From: Ensifer adhaerens
Lineage (GTDB): Bacteria; Pseudomonadota; Alphaproteobacteria; Rhizobiales; Rhizobiaceae
Assembly (NCBI RefSeq): GCF_002007205.1
Contig: NZ_LAZS01000005.1
Span: 806,001-870,000 of the forward strand
DNA length: 64,000 nt
Direction of reading: 5' to 3'
Part shown: positions 51,744 through 63,288 of the stretch, piece after piece
How positions within the stretch are numbered: the stretch's first letter is position 1
Layout: each line of letters begins with the position of its first letter
Program-made: the position numbers and the translations under genes
The notes under the pieces: model-generated
The model's database searches: none
What the model was told of the DNA's origin: nothing
The model's input: the letters and a program-made list of their open reading frames with translations, nothing else

Positions 51744-52322
51744 GTGAGCGAACACGACACTTCAAGCGAGGCCTTGGGCGAGCCCACACGCCGCGATTTC
51801 CTTTATCTGGCCACCGGCATGGCAGGCGTCGTCGGCGCTGGTGCCGTCGCCTGGCCCTTCATCGATCAGATGCGTCCGGATGCGTCCACGCTCGCGCTCG
51901 CCTCGATCGAGGTTGACGTTTCGAGCCTGCAGCCCGGCATGTCGCTGACGGCGAAATGGCGCGGCAAGCCGATCTTCATCCGCAACCGTACAGAGAAGGA
52001 AGTCGAGGAGGCAAAGGCCGTCAAGCTCGACGAGCTGAAGGACCAGGTTGCGCGCAACGCCAACCTTCCGGCCGACGCGAGCGCGAGCGACCTCGATCGC
52101 TCCGCCGGCGAAGGCAAGGAGAACTGGATCGTCATGATCGGTTCCTGCACCCATCTCGGCTGCGTGCCGCTTGGCCAGGCCGGTGATTTCGGTGGCTGGT
52201 TCTGTCCCTGCCACGGTTCGCACTACGATACGGCCGGCCGCATCCGTAAGGGTCCGGCGCCGGAGAACCTTCACGTGCCGACCTTCTCGTTCGTATCCGA
52301 CACAGTTATCAAGATCGGTTGA
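51744..52322 (+). CDS. petA: cytochrome bc1 Rieske iron-sulfur protein
   Basis: A 192-aa Rieske subunit (FbcF). A twin-arginine motif (TRRDFLYLA) and one helix (about 18-38) target it to the membrane by Tat. The [2Fe-2S] ligands are C135 and H137 in SCTHLGC and C154 and H157 in CPCHGS, with C140 and C156 as the expected disulfide. Start is GTG at 51744 with GAGAGGATGG upstream. First gene of petABC, which takes electrons from quinol to cytochrome c. Confidence 0.96.
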
Positions 52323-52336
52323 GGGGACTACTGATA

Positions 52337-53617
52337 ATGAGTGCTGAACATTCAACCTACACGCCGACGACTGGCATTGAGAAATGGGTTGATTCCCGTC
52401 TGCCGTTGCCGCGTCTCGTTCACGATAGCTTCATCAGCTATCCGGTTCCCCGGAACCTGAACTACGCCTACACCTTCGGTGCGATGCTTTCGGTCATGCT
52501 GGTCGTGCAGATCCTGACCGGTATCGTGCTTGCGATGCACTACGCCGCTGAAACGTCCGTCGCCTTCAACTCGGTCGAAAAGATCATGCGCGACGTCAAC
52601 CACGGCTGGCTGCTGCGCTACATGCACGCCAACGGCGCATCCTTCTTCTTCATCGCGGTCTACCTGCACATCGCCCGTGGTCTCTACTACGGCTCCTACA
52701 AGGCTCCGCGCGAAATCCTCTGGATCCTCGGCGTGGTCATCTATCTCCTGATGATGGCGACCGGCTTCATGGGCTACGTTCTGCCCTGGGGTCAGATGTC
52801 CTTCTGGGGCGCGACCGTTATCACCGGCTTCTTCACCGCCTTCCCGTTGGTGGGTGAGTGGATCCAGCAGTTCCTGCTCGGTGGCTTCGCCGTCGACCAG
52901 CCGACGCTGAACCGCTTCTTCTCGCTGCACTACCTGCTGCCCTTCATGATCGCGGGCGTCGTCGTCCTGCACGTCTGGGCCCTGCATGTCACCGGCCAGA
53001 CCAACCCGACCGGCGTTGAAGTGAAGTCCAAGACCGACACCGTTCCCTTCACGCCCTATGCGACGCTGAAGGATGCGCTCGGCGTTTCCGTCTTCCTGAT
53101 CATCTATGCCTGGTTCGTCTTCTATCAGCCGAACTTCCTCGGCCATCCGGACAACTACATTCCGGCTGACGCCCTGAAGACGCCTGCTCACATCGTTCCG
53201 GAATGGTACTACCTGCCGTTCTACGCGATGCTGCGCGCCATCACCTTCAACATCGGCCCGATCGACTCCAAGCTCGGCGGCGTTCTGGTGATGTTCGGCT
53301 CGATCATCATCCTGTTCTTCCTGCCCTGGCTCGATACGTCCAAGGTTCGCTCGGCCGTCTACCGTCCGTGGTACAAGCTGTTCTTCTGGATCTTCGTCGC
53401 CAACTCCATCCTGCTCGGCTGGCTCGGCTCGCGTCCGGCGGAAGGCCTGTACGTCGTGATGTCGCAGATCGGTACGCTGTACTACTTCGGCTTCTTCCTC
53501 GTCATCATGCCGGTTCTCGGCCTGATCGAAACGCCGAAGCGCATTCCGAATTCCATCACCGAAGCGGTCTTGGAAAAGAAGAATGGCAAGGCGCAGCCGG
53601 CTGCCGTACGCGCCTGA
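52337..53617 (+). CDS. petB: cytochrome b of the bc1 complex
   Basis: A 426-aa integral membrane subunit with eight helices. The haem-ligand His pairs lie in helices B and D, in [12 protein letters not shown] / [15 protein letters not shown] and [23 protein letters not shown], and the quinol-oxidation motif [13 protein letters not shown] is intact (PEWY). ATG at 52337 with GAGGGGAC upstream starts about 15 bases after petA. Here cytochrome b and c1 are separate genes, unlike the fused fbcH of Bradyrhizobium. Confidence 0.96.
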
Positions 53618-53649
53618 TCAGAACAGCGATTGATAAGGAACCCACAACA

Positions 53650-54519
53650 ATGAAAAAGCTTGTTACAGGCATTCTGTCACTCGCTGTCGTCGCTGGTCTC
53701 GGTCTCGGTGCGGCTGTTGCCGAAGAGGCTGCAGGCGGCGAGGAGCATGGCGGCGGTACGCCCCACTACCCGATCCACAAGCCGGAACAGCAGGGCTGGA
53801 GCTTTGCCGGTCCCTTCGGTCACTACGACAAGGGCCAGCTGCAGCGCGGCCTGAAGGTCTACACCGAAGTCTGTTCGGCCTGCCACTCGATGGAACTGGT
53901 GGCCTTCCGCACGCTCGAGGGCCTCGGCTACTCGGACGCGCAGGTGAAGGCCTTCGCGGCGAACTACGAAGTCCAGGACGGCCCGAACGCCGACGGCGAG
54001 ATGTTCACCCGCAAGGCCGTTGCCTCGGATCACTTCCCGTCGCCTTACGCCAACAAGGAAGCCGCTGCCGCATCGAACAACGGTGCAGCTCCGCCGGACT
54101 TCTCGCTGATCGCCAAGGCGCGCGGCATCGAGCGCGGTTTCCCGCAGTTCATCTTCGACATGTTCTGGCCCTACCAGGAAGGTGGCCCGGACTACATCCA
54201 CGCGCTGCTGACCGGCTACCAGGACCCGCCGCAGGGCGTGGAAGTCGCCGAAGGCACGCACTACAACCCGTACTTCGCGAACGCCGCCGCTCTGGCGATG
54301 GCCCAGCCGATCTCCGCCGACCAGGTCACCTATGACGATGGCACGCCGCAGACCGTCGACCAGTACGCCAAGGACGTTTCGGCCTTCCTGATGTGGGCAG
54401 CCGAGCCGCACCTCGAAGATCGCAAGCGCACCGGCTTCATGGTCATGGTGTTCCTGCTGATCTTCACCGGCCTGATCTACCTCACGAAGAAGTCGGTCTA
54501 CGCCAACAAGGAACATTGA
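53650..54519 (+). CDS. petC: cytochrome c1 of the bc1 complex
   Basis: A 289-aa membrane-anchored cytochrome. It has an N-terminal signal peptide (KKLVTGILSLAVVAGLGLG), the haem motif C75-S-A-C78-H79, and a C-terminal membrane anchor (about 262-281, FMVMVFLLIFTGLIYLTKK). The axial Met candidate lies in the PPxAMAQ-like region (AALAMAQPISADQV). ATG at 53650 has AAGGA upstream, 32 bases after petB. The terminator after the gene closes the petABC transcript. Confidence 0.95.
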   Translation: MKKLVTGILSLAVVAGLGLGAAVAEEAAGGEEHGGGTPHYPIHKPEQQGWSFAGPFGHYDKGQLQRGLKVYTEVCSACHSMELVAFRTLEGLGYSDAQVKAFAANYEVQDGPNADGEMFTRKAVASDHFPSPYANKEAAAASNNGAAPPDFSLIAKARGIERGFPQFIFDMFWPYQEGGPDYIHALLTGYQDPPQGVEVAEGTHYNPYFANAAALAMAQPISADQVTYDDGTPQTVDQYAKDVSAFLMWAAEPHLEDRKRTGFMVMVFLLIFTGLIYLTKKSVYANKEH

Positions 54520-54560
54520 TCGCCGGTCGGCTTGAGCCGGCGCTGATCAATACCAAAACG

Positions 54561-54590
54561 AAGGCCCCGGTTCGTCCGGGGCCTTTGTCG
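54561..54590 (+). terminator. terminator after petC
   Basis: AAGGCCCCGG / CCGGGGCCTT (10 bp), loop TTCGT, then TGTCG. It is 41 bases past the petC stop and lies before the convergent S41 gene. The U-tract is short, so efficiency is unclear. Confidence 0.65.
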
Positions 54591-54643
54591 TTTCAGGATA
54601 GCGGACCAGTCGTCGCAGGTTGACGTTCTGTATGAAACGGCCG

Positions 54644-55795
54644 TCATCCGGAGGCGAGTGCGATGGCCTTTTCCAGGAAACGGTCGCGGCCGGATTCGAT
54701 GTCGTGCGTCGTCATCGCCATCGGCACGTCAGGGACAATGCCTACGCCTTCGAATTCGGTCCCATCCGGAAAGTACTGCCGTTTGGCACCGACCCAGAGA
54801 CGCATGCCGGCTCCGAGGTCCTGAAAAAACGGTTGGCCGCTCGATCCCATTGTCGTCTCGCCAACGATCATCCCGCGTCCGTTGTCCTTAAACGGCATCA
54901 GGAAATCTTCTGCGGCCGATCCCGTGTCGCGATCCGCCAACAGAACGATGCGGCCCGTGTAGTGGTCACGAATTGGCTCGATCGTCTCCGAGGGAACGGT
55001 GATCTGGGTGCTCGCCATGCCCCTGGCGATTTCGAGCCCAGTGTGTCTTGGCGTGGTCGCCTTCCAGGTGCGATAAGGTCTGTCCATCAGTCGCGCCAAG
55101 AGCTTGAACGGTGTGTTTCCGCCGCCGTTCCCGCGGAGATCGACGATGAGCGCCGGCCGGTGCTGCACCTGATCGACAAAGTGGACGGCAGTTGCTTCGA
55201 GCTCGTCGGCCTCGAAACTCGGAATTTTCAGGACCGGAATGCCGGTAACCAGCTTCAGCGCCGTCGCTGGAGTGCTCTGCGGCAAGACGAACTCGCCCTT
55301 TCGGATACTGGCCCGTTTTCCGTCCGATAACTGAAGCGAGACACTGTCCGGGAACAGGTAGGGGCGCCGAAACAGGTTTGCGCGCGCGGCGCGGCCACTG
55401 GACGCAGAAAGATACGGCTGCTTCGCGGCCACGAAATCTTCTACAGGCTGATCGTCGATCTCGACGATCCTTGTCCCAATCGGTACCGAGGGCTGAGCGG
55501 AGCGGAGAACTGTCCAGCCCTCAGAGAGGTCGTGGACTGCAATGCCGAGACATGCTCCGTGGCTGCGCCACAGCCATTCGTCATCAAACGCGGTGTGTCC
55601 ATTGCGCAGTGCTGCTACCAATCGCATGGTCGCCAGATCAAATTCGCGCCGATCCCCAAGACCCACGATTTCGGCCAGGTAAGCGCCGAAGAGGTCATCG
55701 AAGGCGGAAATGCTCTCGCAATGCGCAAAGCACAGTCTTACTGCCGTGTGTATCCGTGCCGGAACAAGTGTTCGCATGATGTCGGATACGTTCAC
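54644..55795 (-). CDS. S41-family peptidase-like protein
   Basis: A 383-aa protein with a helical N-terminal region, then PDZ-like and S41-core features: ALIVDLRGNGGGNTPFKLL, LLADRDTGSAAEDFLMPF (candidate nucleophile Ser) and GMIVGETTMGSSGQPF. The Lys of Ctp-type catalytic dyads is absent, so it resembles the tricorn-like or inactive branches. No clear signal peptide. GTG at 55795 has GGAG 7 bases upstream and fits better than the TTG at 55855. Codon use looks less GC-biased than its neighbours by eye. Converges with petC. Confidence 0.7.
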   Translation of the reverse strand: MNVSDIMRTLVPARIHTAVRLCFAHCESISAFDDLFGAYLAEIVGLGDRREFDLATMRLVAALRNGHTAFDDEWLWRSHGACLGIAVHDLSEGWTVLRSAQPSVPIGTRIVEIDDQPVEDFVAAKQPYLSASSGRAARANLFRRPYLFPDSVSLQLSDGKRASIRKGEFVLPQSTPATALKLVTGIPVLKIPSFEADELEATAVHFVDQVQHRPALIVDLRGNGGGNTPFKLLARLMDRPYRTWKATTPRHTGLEIARGMASTQITVPSETIEPIRDHYTGRIVLLADRDTGSAAEDFLMPFKDNGRGMIVGETTMGSSGQPFFQDLGAGMRLWVGAKRQYFPDGTEFEGVGIVPDVPMAMTTHDIESGRDRFLEKAIALASG

Positions 55796-56026
55796 CACCT
55801 GTCTCCGCCAGTCACTGATTCTCGGAGAAGCTTGCCATGGCCAGTCGCTGCGCAACAGTCGCGGCCGGTCCTGTTCCCGACGCCAGCGCTTTGTGGATGG
55901 CAGCCACAGGGCGGGCCGTTCGAAAAGCGCTCGCGCGTGTTAAGCAATTTTTCATATTAAAGTTGTGCTTGGCGCGCGCACGCGTAAAAGGGCGCGTCAC
56001 TAGTACATTCAGGGGATTGATATCCG

Positions 56027-56410: not shown

Positions 56411-56715
56411 ACCGGCTCGGCCTGCCGCGCGATTCCCGGAACCGTAGGCGGCCGGAACCGGAAAGCATTGTGAAGTTCGAAGCACTACAGCTTCCGCTGG
56501 GCCTTTGAAGTGAAGACAGCGTGGGCCGCCGGCTAGGCGTCGCGCGGTAGATCGCCCCGACAATTTCGGCGCACCTTCGCCGTACCTGCTGGCGGTTCGA
56601 TCGCGTCGCTGTGCGGATCGGAAGCGATCGGTCGCTTTTCTTCCCTGATATCCCGCAAACGAAAACGGCCCCATCGCAAGACGGGGCCGTTTTCTTTTTG
56701 CTTCTTCGAAGCCGG
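56411..56715. other. 305-bp region between exported protein gene and rgsE
   Basis: No gene. It contains a weak hairpin at 56622-56637 (AAGCGA / TCGCTT) followed by TTCTTCC, and the strong terminator at 56661-56700. Otherwise plain GC-rich spacer sequence. Confidence 0.6.
56661..56700. terminator. terminator shared by the exported protein gene and rgsE
   Basis: GAAAACGGCCCC / GGGGCCGTTTTC (12 bp, perfect) with a 10-base loop, then TTTTTG on the plus strand and GTTTGC on the minus strand. Strong U-tract for plus-strand transcripts, and a fair one for the convergent rgsE transcript. Confidence 0.85.
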
Positions 56716-59700
56716 TTAGCTGAAGCGGCCGGCGGCGTGGGCGAGCATCGTGTAGACCTTGCCGGTATCCGACGTCAGGTAGGTCTGAGTGATGCGCTTG
56801 TCCGGGTCGTTGCGGGCAACGTCGGCAAGCAGCTTCTCGAAATCGGCGATGTAGCGGTCGACGGCGGTGCGGAATTCCGGTTCGCGGTCGTACTTGCGCT
56901 TGATCTCGTCGAAGGTCTGCTGGCCCTTCAGCGTGTAGAGGCGACGGGTGAACACGTCGCGCTCGCCGCGCTGGTAGCGGCGCCACAGCTCGACCGAGGC
57001 ATCGTGATCGATGGCGCGGGCGATATCGACCGAAAGCGAGTTCAGCGATTCAACCACGTGGCGCGGGTTGCGGCTGTCGCCGGTGCGGGCCGTCGGCTGG
57101 GCCTCGGCCGGGCGCTGGGGTGCCGGCGAGGGTGCTTCCTCGCGCGAGGCCGCACGCAGCAGATCCCGCATCCAGCCGCCGCCTTCGGCGACCTCGTTGC
57201 TGACCGCCTGCGACGGCGCCGGTTGGCGAACGGCAGGCTGTTCGATGCCGAGGCTGCCGCGCAGCGCCGGAGCCGGCTCCTGGCGGCGTGGCTGCTCGAC
57301 GACGGGCTGCTGGGCGACGGGCTGCTGGACGAGGGGCTGCTGCGTCACCTGGGCGGCCGGCTGCGGCTGCGGCGCTGGCTGTTGCTGCTGCACCGGACGG
57401 GCGACCGGAGCGGCGGCCGGCTGCTGGCGCAGCGGCTGGGCCACTTCGAGCTGCGTCGAGGACTTGCCGATGATGTCGGACAGTTCCTGCAGCGCCTTGA
57501 TCTGCTCGCCGACGGCGCGGCGCATGACAGCCGCATTTTCCTTGGCTTCTTCCGGCAGGTCGAAGGCGCCGCGCTTCAGCTCTTCGCGGGTCATGTCGAG
57601 TTCCTTGCGGATCTCGCCGGCCGAGCGACGGATCTCGTCGGTAGCACCGCTGAAGCGGCCGATCGCCTCGTCGATCGCCACGCGAACGGCGTCACGAAGC
57701 TGGTCTGCAACGCCATCGGACTTCTTGCCGCTCTCGGCAAGCATGCGCTCGATGTCGGACACGGAGGCCGCAACGCTGCCGCGCAGACGCGAGGCGACTT
57801 CCTTGGAGCGCTCCTCGGCATTGGCAAAGGCGCCCTCGATCGACGCGCCGGCGTCTTCGCCGACCTTGGCGATCGCCTGGCGAAGGGCTTCCGATGCGCC
57901 GAGCGCACGGCCTTCGACCGAGGAGAGTGTCTTGTTCACGTCCGCAAACGAGGTCTCGACACCGGAACGAAGCGTATTGGCGATCTGGCGCGAACGCTCC
58001 TCGGCGCGGCTGAAGACCTGCTCCACCGAGGCACCGGCTTCGTCACCGGCCTGGGCCAGCGTGTTGCGCATCGCTTCTGCCGCTTCTGCCGCGCGCTGTT
58101 CGGCGCTGGTCAGAAGACGACCGACATCCGAGAAGGACTGCTGGATGCCGCTGCGCAGGTTGCCGGCAACGAGACCCGAACGCTCTTCGGCGCGTTGGAA
58201 GGCGCCGTCGACGAAGCCCTCGAGCGCACGCATCGTGCGTTCGATTTCTTCCGAGCGCTGCACGAGGCCGACCGACAGGGTGCGAAGGGCATCCTGGCGC
58301 TCCTCGAGCGTGCTGACGAGGTTCGACTGGGCGGCGCCGAGCAGGTCCGAGGCCTGGCCGAGCACCCGCGAGTGGTCCTCGAAGCGGCCGACGATGCCGC
58401 CGATCTGCGACAGCGTCGAGGCCGAGATATCCGAGAGCTTGTCGACCTTGCCTTCGATGAGGCGGGTGGAAGTCGACAGCATGTCGGAGGCCTGGCGGGT
58501 CGATTCCGATACGCGGGCAATCGTCGATTCCAGACGCTGGTCCATTTCGCCGAGGTTGCTGCTCGCCTGGTCGATGACCGTGGCGATGGCCGCATTGTTA
58601 TTGGCGAGCTGGTCGATCAGGCCCATGGCGGTCGACTGCAGACGGTTTTCGACCATCTTCATCGCCTTTGCCGTCTCTTCGGCGCGGTAGGAGATCGCGT
58701 TCAGCGTCTCGCCCGTGCGCTCGGCGATAGCGTTGACCAGAGCGGCGTTTTCCGCACGCAGGCGGTCGGCGCTTTCCTGGGTCACGGCGGCGATGCGTTC
58801 GGCTGCCTCGCGGCCGGTCGCGGCATACTGGTCGATGACCGGGCGTGCCTGCTCGTCGATCAGGCGCGACAGCTCCATCGAACGGCCGGCGAGCATCGAG
58901 TTGAGTTCGCGGGTGCGCTCGTCGAGCGTGTTGCGGATCGCGTCGCCACGGGCTTCCAGTGCCTTCTCGGTATTGGTGAGGCCCTGGTGGATGCTGTCGG
59001 CATGGTTGGCGATCTGGCTGTGCGTCGCGGCCAGCCGGGCGGACGCCGTATCCGCCGCATCGGCGATCGAGCGGGCGAGTTCGGCGTGACGGGCTGCGGT
59101 GGCTGCCGCCTTCTGCTCGATCGAGTTGGCAAGCTCGGCGTGACGGGTGGCCGTGGCGGCTGCCGTCTGGTCGATCGTGTTGGCGAAATCCGCCTGGCGA
59201 GCGGCAAGTGCGGAGGCGAAGTCGTCGCCGGCCTTCGACAGAAGCCCAGCCGAGCGGACGGCTTCCGCGTCGATATCCTGGGCGGCATCGTTGATTGCGC
59301 CACGAAGGCTGCTCACGAGGCCAGCGGCCTTGTCTTCGATGCGCACGGCTTCAGCGTCGAATTCCTGCGCGACATCGCCAACGGCGTTGCGAAGCGTGTT
59401 GACGAGGCCCGCAGCCTTGTCCTCGATGCGCACGGCTTCCGAGCCGAACTCTTCCGCCACGCCGCCAAACGCGCTGCGCAGGTGACCGACGATATCGGAC
59501 GTCTTGCCTTCGAGGCGGGCGGCCTCGGCGTCCAGATCCTGCGTTGCTTCGCTGACAGCGCCACGCAGGCTGCTGACCAGAACGGCCGCCTTGCCCTCGA
59601 TGGTGCGATTGACGTTGTCGAGGCCGATGTTGAGGGCACGATCCATCGTGCCGAGACGCTCGGCGATGCGTTCCGCACCAGACTCGATGGCGCCGGAGAT

Positions 59701-62700
59701 CCGGGTCGCCGCCATTTCGCTCATGCGATCGATGTCGCCAGCCCGTTCGCCGAGGCTGTCGGCGATGCGCTGTCCGGCGCCATTGACGATGTCACTGACG
59801 CTGCCGACGCTGTCGCGAACCCGGTCTTCGAGCGAGCTGAGGCTGACTTCCAGACGCAGGCCGGTATCATCGACCAGCGTGTTGACGTCGCTGACGCTGC
59901 CGCGAATGCGGTCCTGAAGGACGCCGAGGCTGTTTTCGATGAGCGTGCCGGTTTCGCCGACGATCGAGCCGACGCTGCTGACACTGCCGCGGATCCGGTC
60001 TTCAAGCGCGTTGAGGCCACCTTCGACGCGGGCTGCCGCGTCGTCGACGACGGAGCCGACATTGGTGACGCTGCCGCGAATGCGGTTTTCGAGCGCGCCG
60101 AGGTTGCTTTCGATCCGTGCGCCGGTGTCGTCGACCACTGCGCCGACATTGCCGACGGTGCCACGAATGCGGTCTTCCAGCACGCCGACGCGGGTTTCAA
60201 TATGCATGCCCGTTTCATCGACGATCGAGCCGATGTTGCCGGCGCTTTCGCGCATGCGTTCTTCAAGAGCGCCAAGGCTCGTCTCGACACGCAGGCCGGT
60301 ATCATCGAGCCGGTCGTTGATGCCGTTGATCGACATGTCGACGCGGTTGGTGAGGCTGTCGGCCGCCAGGCTGATCTGGGTGGCGGTTTCGGCCAGACGC
60401 TCGGCAATATGGCCCGTGGTCGAGCGCATGCGGCTGTCGAGCGCTTCGCCGCTGCGGTCGATGACGCCGGCGAGTGCCGACTGGCGCTCTTCGAGCGACA
60501 TTTCCAGCATGCTGGCGCTGGTGGCGAGCGTCGTGGCGATCGCCGTCGACTGATCGGCAAGCATGCCTTCGAGCTGGTCGCGGCCCTGGCCGACGGCAAG
60601 GTTGATGGCGTTGATGCGGTCGTCGAGCGTGACGCGGATCTGTTCGTGCGTCGACGACAGGGTGTCGCGCAGGTGTTCGGCCCGGCCGCTCAGCGTCTCC
60701 TCGATTTCAGCGGCCTTGCCGGCGAGCGACGCGGTCGCTTCGGTGGTGCGTGCCGTCAGAGCATCGGCGATGTGCGCGCTGGTCTCGGTCAGCGTGTCGG
60801 ATATCTTGCTGACACGGCCGCTCAGGTCCTCGGCAATGCGGGCGCTCGTCTGGGTAAGGGTGTCCGAAATCAGGCTGACGCGGCCGCCGAGGTTTTCGGC
60901 AATCGTGTTGACGCTCTCGGACAGCTTCTGCTCAATGTCGCCGACGCGATCGGTCATGGTTTCGGCCACGGCGGTTGCCCGGAAGGTCAGGCTGTCGGCC
61001 ACGTCTTCGGCGTGACGGCTCAGCGTGTTGGCCATCTCGTTGGCGCGCGACGACATAGTCGAGGTGATCGCGGCGGCGCGCTCGGCGAGCACGCCGTCAA
61101 GCGCCGACGTCTGGCTGGTGAGCGCATCGGAGATCGCTTCGCCGCGTTCGGAAAGTACGCGCTCCAGCCGGTCGGCCGTGCCGCTGACGGCGTTGTCGAT
61201 CGAATCCGCGCCCATGGAGAGGATGGTCGAAAGCGCGAGCGTGCGTTCCGACAGGGTGTTGTCGAGACGGTGCTGGCTGGCGGCGATCGCGCTGGTGATC
61301 TCGTCAGTCGAACCGCTGAGCGTCTGCTCGATGCGGGCATGCGCGGCCTGCAATCCGTCGACGAAGGCGGCGGTGCGGCTGTCGAGACCTTCGGTCAGGC
61401 GCTGTTCGCTCGTCGTCAGTGCGGTCGAAAGTGCGTCCGCACGCTGGCCGAAGCCGTTCTCGATGCGGTCCTGAGCCTGGGTGAGGGCGCCCATGAGGCC
61501 GCTGGTCTTTTCCGAGAGCACAGCGTCGATGCGGCTGTGCGCATCGCCGATCATGGTGCCGAGCTCGGTGGTGCGGCTCGCGATCGTTTCCTCGATAAAG
61601 TCCTGGGTCGCGCCGAGCGTGGTCGCAAGCGTCAGCGACTGATCGGAGAGCGCAGAGCCGATCTTCTCGATGCTGCTGTCGAGCGCGCCGCCGATCGCTT
61701 CCGAGCCGCCCGAGACGGTCTCGTTGATCCGGTGCAGGCTTTCCATGAGCTTGGTGTCGAGCAGGCTCGCGCGCTTGTCGAAGGCGGAGGCAAACTCGTG
61801 GAAGCGCTCATCGAAGGCCGTTGCCAGATGACCGACCGTCGTCTGCAGCTTTTCTTCGAAGAAGCCGCCGCGCAGGTCGAGGTCCATGATCGCGTCGTCG
61901 GCGCTGGAGCGCAGGCTCTGGCGGAAGCTCGCGCCCTTTTCGTCGAGCGTGGCGTTGAGGGAAGCGAGCACGTGGTCGAGGCCACCGGTGATCGCCTGCT
62001 GGCCGACGCTGAGGCTCTCGTTGAGGTCGCGGGTGCGGGCGATCAGCGTTTCGTTAAGCTGGCGCGCACGTTCGTTGAGCGCCGCATTCAGCTTCTCGGT
62101 GCTGGCATCGAGCGAGGAGGCGCGCGTTTCGAACTGGCTGAGCAGATCCTCGCCGCGCTTCGTCAGCGTGTCGCTCAGTTGGTCGAGCCGGGTGTCGAAT
62201 TCGGTGCTGAGGCCAAGGCCGGCTGCGGTGAGGCCTGAGAGCAGCGCATCGGTGCGGGTCGTCAGCATCGTGCCGATCGACTGCAGCGCGCCGTCGGACT
62301 TCTCGCTGAGGGCGGCGGCGCGGGTGTCGATCAGCGAGGCAAAGGCTTCGCCCGAGATCGCGATGCGCGAGGCGATGTCTTCGCTCGCCTGTTCCAGATC
62401 GTCCTTCAGCTTGCCATGGGCACCTGAAATTGCCGAGCGGATGCGCTCGGAATGGCCAATGATGGCTTCGCGCTCAAGGCCGAGTTCCTGCACCAGCGTG
62501 CGCACGCGCAGCTCGTTCTCGCTGTAGCTGCGTTCAAGGGCGTTGACCTCGGAATGCACGAGCGTTTCGAGTTCGGTGGCGCGGGCAATGGTGCGCTCGA
62601 TGCCTTCGTTCATCGCCGAAACTTCGCGGCGGACAGCCTGACCAACGGTCATGACGCGATCGGCAGCAGCCGTTTCCGGCTCGGCAAGGCGGAGTGCGAC

Positions 62701-63288
62701 TTCCGCCATCGAGCGCGCGGCGTTGCGCAGTTCCTGCGCGCGGGCGATCATGATGGCGAAGGAGAAGAACAGCATGATCGGCAGCACGATGCCGATCGCG
62801 ACGCCGACGGCGCCAGGGGTGGCGGCGAGGTCGCTCAGCGAGCGGATCTGCCAGATCTGCGGCCCGTAAAGAAGGTTGGCGACGCCAAGGCCGGCGACTG
62901 CCCAGACGACCGACACCAGCGCAGCAACGCGGATCGCGGCGCGATTGGAGCGCACGTCGAGCGCGCGCAGCATCGCAGCCGGCGAACGGCGGCCATCGTC
63001 GTTGGCGGCGGAAAGGGACGGGGACTTGGGCGCAGGTTCCGGAGCGAGCGTCTTGGCCGCTTCTGCAGCACGTGCCCCGCGGGACTGTTCCGGCTGAGGC
63101 CGTGCTTTCTTGTTCTGATCGGGCGTCGCCGCCTGATTGGTGGGCTGAGACACATTTTCCTCCGGATCATCCAAGGAAGTCTTGTCATTCGGGCTCGATG
63201 CAAGCTCGTCGAAATCAATCTTCAGGGCCGCTTCCAGAGCCTGGAACGCCTTTTCGTCGATCGACTCATTGCTCTTTTTCGTCGCCAT
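56716..63288 (-). CDS. rgsE: giant polar-growth ring protein (RgsE/GPR-like)
   Basis: A 2190-aa inner-membrane protein. It has a ~118-residue charged cytoplasmic N-terminus, two membrane helices (about 119-141 and 160-182), then ~1700 residues of almost continuous coiled-coil-like helix, a Gln/Pro-rich linker (QQPAAAPVARPVQQQQ), and a conserved ~110-residue C-terminal domain (from VESLNSLSVDIARAIDHDA to AAGRFS). The layout and length match Agrobacterium GPR (Growth Pole Ring, 2115 aa) and S. meliloti RgsE, which organise the growth pole with Tol-Pal. The start at 63288 has GAGG 9 bases upstream. An ATG five codons earlier has a badly spaced site. The helix is built from 22- and 29-residue repeats. 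Confidence 0.9.
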   Translation of the reverse strand: MATKKSNESIDEKAFQALEAALKIDFDELASSPNDKTSLDDPEENVSQPTNQAATPDQNKKARPQPEQSRGARAAEAAKTLAPEPAPKSPSLSAANDDGRRSPAAMLRALDVRSNRAAIRVAALVSVVWAVAGLGVANLLYGPQIWQIRSLSDLAATPGAVGVAIGIVLPIMLFFSFAIMIARAQELRNAARSMAEVALRLAEPETAAADRVMTVGQAVRREVSAMNEGIERTIARATELETLVHSEVNALERSYSENELRVRTLVQELGLEREAIIGHSERIRSAISGAHGKLKDDLEQASEDIASRIAISGEAFASLIDTRAAALSEKSDGALQSIGTMLTTRTDALLSGLTAAGLGLSTEFDTRLDQLSDTLTKRGEDLLSQFETRASSLDASTEKLNAALNERARQLNETLIARTRDLNESLSVGQQAITGGLDHVLASLNATLDEKGASFRQSLRSSADDAIMDLDLRGGFFEEKLQTTVGHLATAFDERFHEFASAFDKRASLLDTKLMESLHRINETVSGGSEAIGGALDSSIEKIGSALSDQSLTLATTLGATQDFIEETIASRTTELGTMIGDAHSRIDAVLSEKTSGLMGALTQAQDRIENGFGQRADALSTALTTSEQRLTEGLDSRTAAFVDGLQAAHARIEQTLSGSTDEITSAIAASQHRLDNTLSERTLALSTILSMGADSIDNAVSGTADRLERVLSERGEAISDALTSQTSALDGVLAERAAAITSTMSSRANEMANTLSRHAEDVADSLTFRATAVAETMTDRVGDIEQKLSESVNTIAENLGGRVSLISDTLTQTSARIAEDLSGRVSKISDTLTETSAHIADALTARTTEATASLAGKAAEIEETLSGRAEHLRDTLSSTHEQIRVTLDDRINAINLAVGQGRDQLEGMLADQSTAIATTLATSASMLEMSLEERQSALAGVIDRSGEALDSRMRSTTGHIAERLAETATQISLAADSLTNRVDMSINGINDRLDDTGLRVETSLGALEERMRESAGNIGSIVDETGMHIETRVGVLEDRIRGTVGNVGAVVDDTGARIESNLGALENRIRGSVTNVGSVVDDAAARVEGGLNALEDRIRGSVSSVGSIVGETGTLIENSLGVLQDRIRGSVSDVNTLVDDTGLRLEVSLSSLEDRVRDSVGSVSDIVNGAGQRIADSLGERAGDIDRMSEMAATRISGAIESGAERIAERLGTMDRALNIGLDNVNRTIEGKAAVLVSSLRGAVSEATQDLDAEAARLEGKTSDIVGHLRSAFGGVAEEFGSEAVRIEDKAAGLVNTLRNAVGDVAQEFDAEAVRIEDKAAGLVSSLRGAINDAAQDIDAEAVRSAGLLSKAGDDFASALAARQADFANTIDQTAAATATRHAELANSIEQKAAATAARHAELARSIADAADTASARLAATHSQIANHADSIHQGLTNTEKALEARGDAIRNTLDERTRELNSMLAGRSMELSRLIDEQARPVIDQYAATGREAAERIAAVTQESADRLRAENAALVNAIAERTGETLNAISYRAEETAKAMKMVENRLQSTAMGLIDQLANNNAAIATVIDQASSNLGEMDQRLESTIARVSESTRQASDMLSTSTRLIEGKVDKLSDISASTLSQIGGIVGRFEDHSRVLGQASDLLGAAQSNLVSTLEERQDALRTLSVGLVQRSEEIERTMRALEGFVDGAFQRAEERSGLVAGNLRSGIQQSFSDVGRLLTSAEQRAAEAAEAMRNTLAQAGDEAGASVEQVFSRAEERSRQIANTLRSGVETSFADVNKTLSSVEGRALGASEALRQAIAKVGEDAGASIEGAFANAEERSKEVASRLRGSVAASVSDIERMLAESGKKSDGVADQLRDAVRVAIDEAIGRFSGATDEIRRSAGEIRKELDMTREELKRGAFDLPEEAKENAAVMRRAVGEQIKALQELSDIIGKSSTQLEVAQPLRQQPAAAPVARPVQQQQPAPQPQPAAQVTQQPLVQQPVAQQPVVEQPRRQEPAPALRGSLGIEQPAVRQPAPSQAVSNEVAEGGGWMRDLLRAASREEAPSPAPQRPAEAQPTARTGDSRNPRHVVESLNSLSVDIARAIDHDASVELWRRYQRGERDVFTRRLYTLKGQQTFDEIKRKYDREPEFRTAVDRYIADFEKLLADVARNDPDKRITQTYLTSDTGKVYTMLAHAAGRFS
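59263..59523 (-). repeat. 29-residue (87-bp) repeat block B in rgsE
   Basis: Three units of exactly 87 bp (residues 1256-1342), each of the form AVRIEDKAAGLVxxLRxA plus (V/I)xDxAQxxDAE. A partial unit precedes (KAAVLVSSLRGAVSEATQ). The consensus differs from block A, so it is a separate amplification of the same length. Confidence 0.85.
59788..60309 (-). repeat. 29-residue (87-bp) repeat block A in rgsE
   Basis: Six units of exactly 87 bp (residues 994-1167), the first overlapping the end of the 22-residue array. Units are variants of VDDTGxRIExSLGALEDRIRG plus SVSSVGSI; positions of Val/Ile, Asp-Thr-Gly and Leu-Glu-Asp-Arg are kept. A partial seventh unit follows (VNGAGQRIADSLG). Four full turns of 7.25 residues fit a 29-mer. 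Confidence 0.9.
60280..61797 (-). repeat. 22-residue (66-bp) helical repeat array in rgsE
   Basis: Residues about 498-1003 divide without any gap into 23 units of exactly 22 residues. Units share a heptad-like start (for example RIDAVLSEKTSGLMGALTQA and RLTEGLDSRTAAFVDGLQAA): a hydrophobic residue at position 2, then Thr/Ser/Leu and a Leu/Ile near 13 and 17. This is the 2 x 11 pattern of apolipoprotein A1/E. Extra units without gaps are found further N-terminal. Confidence 0.85.

Follow-up and report, generated by a model that had tools for sequence, protein, structure and literature searches.

The window, a 64,000-nucleotide stretch of the Ensifer adhaerens genome, carries on its minus strand a giant gene (P0001, 56716..63288) that encodes 2,190 amino acids counted from the start MATKKS. 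In its best segments, the protein shares 97% identity with an Ensifer adhaerens protein and 70% with a protein of Sinorhizobium meliloti 4H41 (L010, 2,094 aa), the latter match covering residues 1-2190 of the window protein. Judged by this full-length similarity, it is the ortholog of RgsE of S. meliloti and GPR of A. tumefaciens, and the gene is hereafter called rgsE. RgsE/GPR has been described as a giant protein of the growth pole with two membrane helices and its bulk in the cytoplasm (PMC7327166, PMC8262873), and depletion of rgsE is an established procedure in S. meliloti Rm2011 (PMC7327166). The genes next to it, at 52319-55855, encode cytochrome b, cytochrome c1, and an S41 peptidase, and no functional link between these neighbors and rgsE was evident. 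Antisense to rgsE, at 56611-62238 on the plus strand, runs an open reading frame that encodes 1,875 aa and may have arisen merely through codon use. Within the gene it is free of stops over 1,840 codons, a length equaled or surpassed on the antisense strand in 8 of 200 synonymous shuffles.

The protein can be divided into zones (all on the minus strand). AlphaFold2 places two N-terminal helices at residues 114-146 and 160-201; together with the loop that joins them (62686..62949), they are taken as the membrane anchor, in line with the topology given in PMC7327166 and PMC8262873. They are followed by a neck, predicted to be helical, at residues 191-272 (62473..62718), with a pitch of ~3.57 residues per turn. 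Residues 273-391 (62116..62472) have an 11-residue pitch in a single register, and the main shaft, residues 392-989 (60322..62115), holds an unbroken 11-residue register over 598 aa. Residues 990-1450 (58939..60321) have a pitch of ~3.63 and are built of 29-residue units, that is, 11+11+7; an 87-bp tandem repeat of 5.9 copies lies here, at 59797-60308, and indels among relatives measure 29, 87, 18, and multiples of 11 residues. The rod tail, residues 1541-1940 (57469..58668), has a pitch of ~3.57 and then 3.63-3.66 and few indel sites, and the Pro/Gln-rich linker, residues 1941-2090 (57019..57468), has plentiful indels. The C-terminal region, residues 2091-2190 (56719..57018), is 92-98% identical among 73 relatives. 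These 73 are our 74 near relatives minus one that is more than 95% identical to the window protein. Across them, conservation is 86-98% in the neck and C-terminal region, where no gap starts occur, and only 37-62% in most windows of residues 541-1440. The two conserved regions are likely partner sites.

The first-pass annotation had described 60280-61797 as 23 gapless units of 22 residues. These coordinates do correspond to residues 498-1003 counted from MATKKS, and the stretch does divide into 23 x 22. The regularity is real, and its basic unit is 11 residues rather than 22. Taking large hydrophobic residues as the signal, the best Fourier period of residues 498-1003 was 3.665, i.e., 11/3, with a power of 73; none of 500 shuffles went above 11.9. 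A period-11 profile of the same stretch held 9.95 bits compared with 2.65 in shuffled sequence (z 26), periods 22 and 33 scored as multiples of 11 (z 19.6 and 17.3), and periods 7-10, 12-15, 18, 25, and 29 gave no signal. Lags 22 and 44 did correlate better than lag 11, but the two halves of the 22-mer were indistinguishable (p = 0.29 by residue, 0.17 by hydrophobicity). We thus ruled out 22 as the basic unit, since the halves are alike and odd and even multiples of 11 are equally frequent among the indels described below.

The register was also said to run unbroken from residue 498 to 1003. An 11-state register path assigned residues 392-989 to one register and 273-391 to a different one; the former begins 106 residues before 498 and stops 14 before 1003, so that the claim stands up to residue 989 and the last 14 residues (990-1003) already lie outside. 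Past 989, the register switches every 17 to 50 residues over ~200 residues. The phase at 11/3 wobbles at 323-367, is roughly level over ~389-980, and from 983 on shows the steady drift that a period of 29/8 would give. The pitch observed along the rod is 3.57, 3.66, 3.63, and 3.57 by zone.

Such long registers were absent from the controls. In 75 proteins (the window protein and its 74 near relatives), the longest register spanned 345-988 residues (median 584), compared with at most 96 in 30 shuffled bodies and at most 175 in 30 phase-scrambled ones. The SMC protein of the same genome, with a near-heptad pitch, reached 55. Among stop-to-stop frames of at least 300 aa lying away from rgsE in the relatives' loci, 0 of 861 exceeded a power of 15 at 11/3, whereas the 76 rgsE frames of the relatives ranged from 36.7 to 49.4; other frames that overlap rgsE exceeded 15 in 109 of 374 cases. 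The shuffles, the phase-scrambled sequences, SMC, and the 861 frames rule out chance or a generic coiled coil, and the possibility raised at first pass, that a shuffled coiled-coil control might show the same periodicity, was not borne out.

The residues that make up the 11-mer point to a coiled-coil core. In the window protein, positions 2 and 6 are large and hydrophobic in 45 and 44 of 46 11-mers, respectively. Pooling 29 distant proteins, the same two positions are occupied by Leu/Ile/Val/Phe, position 10 is Gly/Ser/Ala/Thr in 76%, position 9 is Arg/Lys (net +44 per 100), and positions 1, 3, 4, 7, 8, and 11 are net acidic; a positive position 9 accompanied by a negative position 3 was found in 28 of the 29. 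The weakest core position of the window protein is 10, which is Ala/Thr/Ser in only 26 of 46. From its residue pattern, the 11-residue period with core positions a = 10, d = 2, and h = 6 fits a hendecad coiled coil. Small residues at the axis-facing core position of hendecads go with dimers (PMC9858780); here that position is small in 76% of the distant 11-mers and in 26/46 of those in the window protein.

The same stretch was noted at first pass to match the 2 x 11 repeat of apolipoproteins, and from this it was proposed that it lies on the membrane or forms an even-pitched rod. The match exists. PF01442 scored 251.5 bits for the whole protein and 113.4 bits for residues 498-1003, above the Pfam gathering cut-off of 90, and apoA-IV was the only PDB relative at an E value of 0.01 or better. 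However, of four controls made by shuffling residues within the 11 columns, the two that were run against PF01442 scored 92.0 and 92.4 bits, so both passed the cut-off; one full shuffle of 498-1003 matched no Pfam family. Against the apoA-IV fragment, the real stretch scored 29.9 bits, 200 column shuffles averaged 22.4 with 16 reaching the real score or more, and 200 full shuffles averaged 0.1. Because register-preserving shuffles still pass, the apolipoprotein match reflects mostly shared register and composition and is not evidence of kinship or lipid binding; the real sequence does score somewhat above the column shuffles, and common descent is neither supported nor contradicted by these scores. 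PF04513 also accepts a register-preserving shuffle of 60280-61797 (minus strand): one of two exceeded its cut-off, compared with two of two for PF01442. Since Pfam models of 11-residue helices accept such shuffles, other bacterial “apolipoprotein” annotations may likewise rest on register alone.

Could the shaft nevertheless be a giant amphipathic 11/3 helix running along the inner leaflet, in the manner of apolipoproteins, perilipin 4, and alpha-synuclein on lipid, with the register keeping one helix face on the membrane? Beyond the PF01442 match and the sole PDB relative, 11/3 helices of this kind are known to fold on lipid, perilipin 4 containing 29 gapless 33-mers (PMC5889406), and a membrane-lying helix would need quantized indels as well. 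We nonetheless consider both the inner-leaflet placement and this role of the register unlikely. The scores largely survive register-preserving shuffling; residues 498-1003 carry a net charge of -1.5 per 22 residues, 1.4% Lys, ~1% aromatics, and no Pro; positive charge lies on one flank only; and a pitch that varies along the rod is hardly matched by one flat surface. Class A apolipoprotein 22-mers are punctuated by proline, and their apolar face is flanked by basic residues on either side. That pattern was absent from 498-1003, which has 0 Pro and a positive flank at position 9 opposed by a negative one at position 3. A HeliQuest-like index never exceeded 1.34; the apoA-IV fragment fails this index too, so it does not discriminate, and we dropped it as an arbiter. 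Taken together, the core pattern, the pitch changes, and the one-sided charge favor a self-associating rod over a membrane-lying helix, as far as sequence can tell.

To follow the register through evolution, we turned to near relatives, namely the best 80 of 340 matches, which correspond to 75 loci. The window’s own locus (L001) was left out, and a truncated one (L076) was left out of pair counts. All 2,775 pairs among the window protein and its 74 near relatives were aligned, and residues 190-1880 were defined as the helical body. In pairs of at least 90% identity, all 64 distinct body gaps were multiples of 11 or 29, although such pairs are not independent. We drew 37 independent pairs from a UPGMA tree, 32 of them at 80% identity or more and five below. 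The 32 closer pairs contained 39 body gaps, of which 30 were multiples of 11 (binomial p = 5e-24), seven were multiples of 29, and the remaining two were 138 and 18 residues long; none was shorter than 11. Their lengths were 33 and 44 (seven each), 11 (six), 22 and 29 (five each), 66 (three), 87 (two), and 99, 154, 138, and 18 (one each). Outside the body, 75 of the 78 gaps in the same pairs were shorter than 11 (Fisher p = 7e-28), whereas residue identity was similar inside and outside. A FastTree topology (32 pairs) gave 42 body gaps, comprising 31 multiples of 11, seven multiples of 29, one of 138, one of 18, and two of 3, as against 68 of 72 gaps below 11 outside the body (p = 1e-23). The five UPGMA pairs below 80% identity had 23 of 35 body gaps at multiples of 11 and four under 11.

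Between residues 280 and 983, 21 of 22 gaps were multiples of 11, and all seven multiples of 29 fell where the pitch, measured with the insert included, is 3.625-3.64; one 11-residue gap and the 18-residue gap also fell in the 3.63-pitch zone. Gap starts in the 73 relatives were absent from residues 191-540, present in 541-1640 and 1741-1790, and plentiful in the Pro/Gln linker. In the shaft, copy number changes by 11-residue units starting near residue 541, and most of residues 498-1003 thus belongs to the section of the rod where units come and go. At first pass, a register that breaks in homologs had been named as counterevidence; among the near relatives it does not break, the indels being 11k or 29k. 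This quantization of indels in steps of 11 (or 29) residues is the new, evolutionary result of the present analysis.

Small indels in the body are rare. Across all 422 pairs of at least 80% identity, which are not independent and include repeat counts of one event, we counted 30 body gaps of 10 residues or fewer. Three residues was the commonest length (21 gaps), followed by 7 (four gaps) and 8 (three gaps); lengths of 4 and 1 were seen once each, and lengths of 2, 5, 6, 9, and 10 did not occur. Hence 28 of 30 measure 3, 7, or 8 residues, about one or two helix turns, and resemble stutters. We rejected the notion that they are split 11k events, as only 4 of 30 sum with their neighbors to a multiple of 11, and a few true small changes therefore do exist. 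An aligner artefact was ruled out as well: 180 simulated random single indels were recovered at their true lengths.

Quantized lengths could in principle be the footprint of tandem-repeat recombination alone, with no selection on the register. The DNA does bear the marks of such recombination: the gene holds a 66-bp tandem array besides the 87-bp one, inserts share with their neighbors a median DNA identity of 0.77 and up to 0.97, and exact direct repeats reach 39 bp. Many inserts are near-identical tandem copies, and part of the quantization is thus mutational; short-read assemblies can miscount near-identical copies, a caveat on counts of tandem-copy indels. Recombination alone, however, predicts ordinary small indels too, and body gaps below 11 number 0 of 39 or 2 of 42 depending on the tree. 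Furthermore, odd and even multiples of 11 are split 14 to 16 among 30, though lags 22 and 44 repeat better, and the gaps whose insert and neighbor share no more than 62% DNA identity (5 of 39, at a limit chosen after the table was seen) are still multiples of 11 in five of five cases. An account without selection on the register is consequently improbable in our estimation, and from the sequences, unit recombination and selection on register both seem to act.

We then asked how far these features extend. The N-terminal part of the protein was present in 119 of 121 genomes searched, and the helical body ranged from 450 to 2,369 aa in 115 proteins. We sampled 40 distant loci out of the 119 genomes with a match and observed the register recurring across the order. 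The first listed 110-residue window had a pitch of 3.555-3.59 in 40 of 40, and the middle of the protein mostly 3.64-3.69. A register of at least 250 residues was kept in 29 of the 40; the longest spanned 1,347 residues (L083), where 119 of 122 11-mers are distinct. The other 11 lack one of this length, their longest register being 53-233 residues, and in three proteins (L099, L100, and L102) the register was no better than in shuffles. In both sampled members of one genus of the same family (L110 and L111), the shaft has mostly a pitch of ~3.59-3.65, with best repeat lags that include 29, 36, 18, and 94 (7s and 11s), and looks as if its supercoil had been swapped. The Agrobacterium vitis protein (L075) has a repeat unit of larger size, its strongest self-similarity falling at lag 88 = 8 x 11.

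Structure prediction agrees with a continuous helix where it is confident. Using 25 alignment rows, AlphaFold2 modeled residues 206-419 as one 214-residue helix with a pLDDT of mostly 92-96, falling to 80-85 near the far end. For residues 480-1010, also with 25 rows, the model was nearly all helix at a pLDDT of 67 and a pTM of 0.22, too weak to distinguish a rod from a bundle, with low-confidence helix breaks at ~555-562, 705-707, and 811-817. These breaks, together with published SWISS-MODEL models of two GPR parts that resemble apoA-IV (PMC8262873), could suggest an apolipoprotein-like bundle of separate helices, or hairpins, in place of a single rod. We regard such a bundle as very unlikely. 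The register crosses all three predicted breaks with no change of phase, the better supported model, albeit of another part, is a single helix, and spuriously bent models are named as a limitation of AlphaFold on coiled coils (PMC11676326).

We therefore favor, as the probable state of affairs, that RgsE/GPR forms a hendecad coiled-coil rod that is anchored in the membrane and associates with itself. Two membrane helices would lead into a conserved neck of ~80 residues with a pitch of ~3.57, on the left-handed side; the neck would give way to the 11-residue units of the shaft, which at pitch 11/3 would be slightly right-handed, and the difference between 3.57 and 3.66 is one that supercoiling would easily absorb. 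The shaft would be followed by the nearly straight zone of 29-residue units (11+11+7), the tail, the flexible Pro/Gln linker, and the conserved C-terminal region. In the proposed hendecad core, a is small (Ala/Gly/Ser/Thr), d is Leu/Ile, and h is Leu; Arg occupies k, next to the core. Since the helix would have to stay in phase, most gains and losses of 1-10 residues would be removed by selection, whereas whole units, arising largely from recombination between neighboring repeats, would be tolerated, and shaft length would in consequence drift in quanta. All our models are of single chains, and the oligomeric state is therefore an inference; self-association is presumed, with a dimer as the likely form. 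The rod may keep cytoplasmic partners some way off the membrane ring of the growth pole and may carry the C-terminal region on its flexible linker, which would be consistent with the published GPR multimers and 200-nm ring (PMC8262873). The suggestion at first pass of an even-pitched rod in a growth-pole ring is supported in part, by the proline-free continuous register and the phase-keeping indels; the ring itself is already published (PMC8262873). Keeping the register seems to matter more than the length of the helix or its supposed kinship with lipid carriers.

This reading has consequences for published deletions. A deletion of a 20-residue coiled coil in GPR (elsewhere given as 21; residues 413-434 or 413-433) was described as the most severe in an interference assay, exceeding that of the surrounding domain (PMC8262873). 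Loss of register is a possible explanation, for an A. tumefaciens GPR that we know from that paper. It is only a suggestion, as the surrounding domain, residues 232-494 (PMC8262873), is by its stated borders 263 residues long and so is also out of register; the other domain, residues 1036-1381, has 346, and neither length is a multiple of 11 or 29. Lost register and lost domain may hence be confounded in these deletions, going by the stated borders. If the rod is indeed locked in register, GPR deletions may shift the helix face rather than remove a domain, and the main argument from sequence for the lipid idea falls away. RgsE/GPR, a candidate scaffold of unipolar growth in Hyphomicrobiales, has so far been read as an apolipoprotein. 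The rgsE gene would also lend itself to the study of protein-length evolution under selection for phase instead of length, with natural variants as the data.

A more speculative idea, and one we hold to be decidedly improbable, is that the rod serves the growth pole as a molecular ruler and sets the geometry of the growth ring by its hendecad-adjustable length. At 0.148 nm per residue, the helical body of the window protein would measure ~250 nm and its unbroken shaft ~88 nm. The six foci of GPR lie on a ring of 200 nm (PMC8262873), and the edge of the corresponding hexagon would be ~100 nm. If the ruler were real, bodies of 450 to 2,369 residues (67 to 351 nm) would be expected to go with rings or pole caps that differ in size.

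Some of these elements are already in print. The similarity to apolipoproteins and the term “repeat-containing” appear in the RgsE/GPR literature (PMC7327166, PMC8262873), which speaks of apolipoprotein domains and of coiled coils 20-22 residues long, whereas here we describe an 11-residue register, pitch zones, and quantized indels. The main texts of both papers do not contain the words “hendecad”, “heptad”, or “periodic”, and that of PMC8262873 does not contain “repeat” or “register”. Among papers on hendecads and on GPR, titles and the beginnings of abstracts mentioned no 11-residue register for GPR, and the survey of hendecad families by Martinez-Goikoetxea and Lupas (2023) may already list this one.

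Among known systems, perilipin 4 and the apolipoproteins, like RgsE, keep an 11-residue register without gaps for hundreds of residues (PMC5889406), but RgsE differs from them in being acidic and proline-free, with one-sided charge and a changing pitch, and homology between RgsE and apolipoproteins is unsupported once the register is controlled for. Scy and FilP of Streptomyces are hendecad-rich coiled-coil rods that have small core residues (PMC9858780). Both are dimeric, with Ala above all among the small core residues, and the Scy rod exceeds 1,000 residues (PMC9858780). They begin with a DivIVA-like N-terminus in contrast to the two membrane helices of the window protein, and the likeness, which is by description, is one of design only. 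Finally, the arms of SMC proteins likewise tolerate changes in coiled-coil length only in certain steps (PMC5344682); these arms are heptad-based, with length modes ~100 aa apart (PMC5344682), whereas the quantum of RgsE is 11 or 29 residues.
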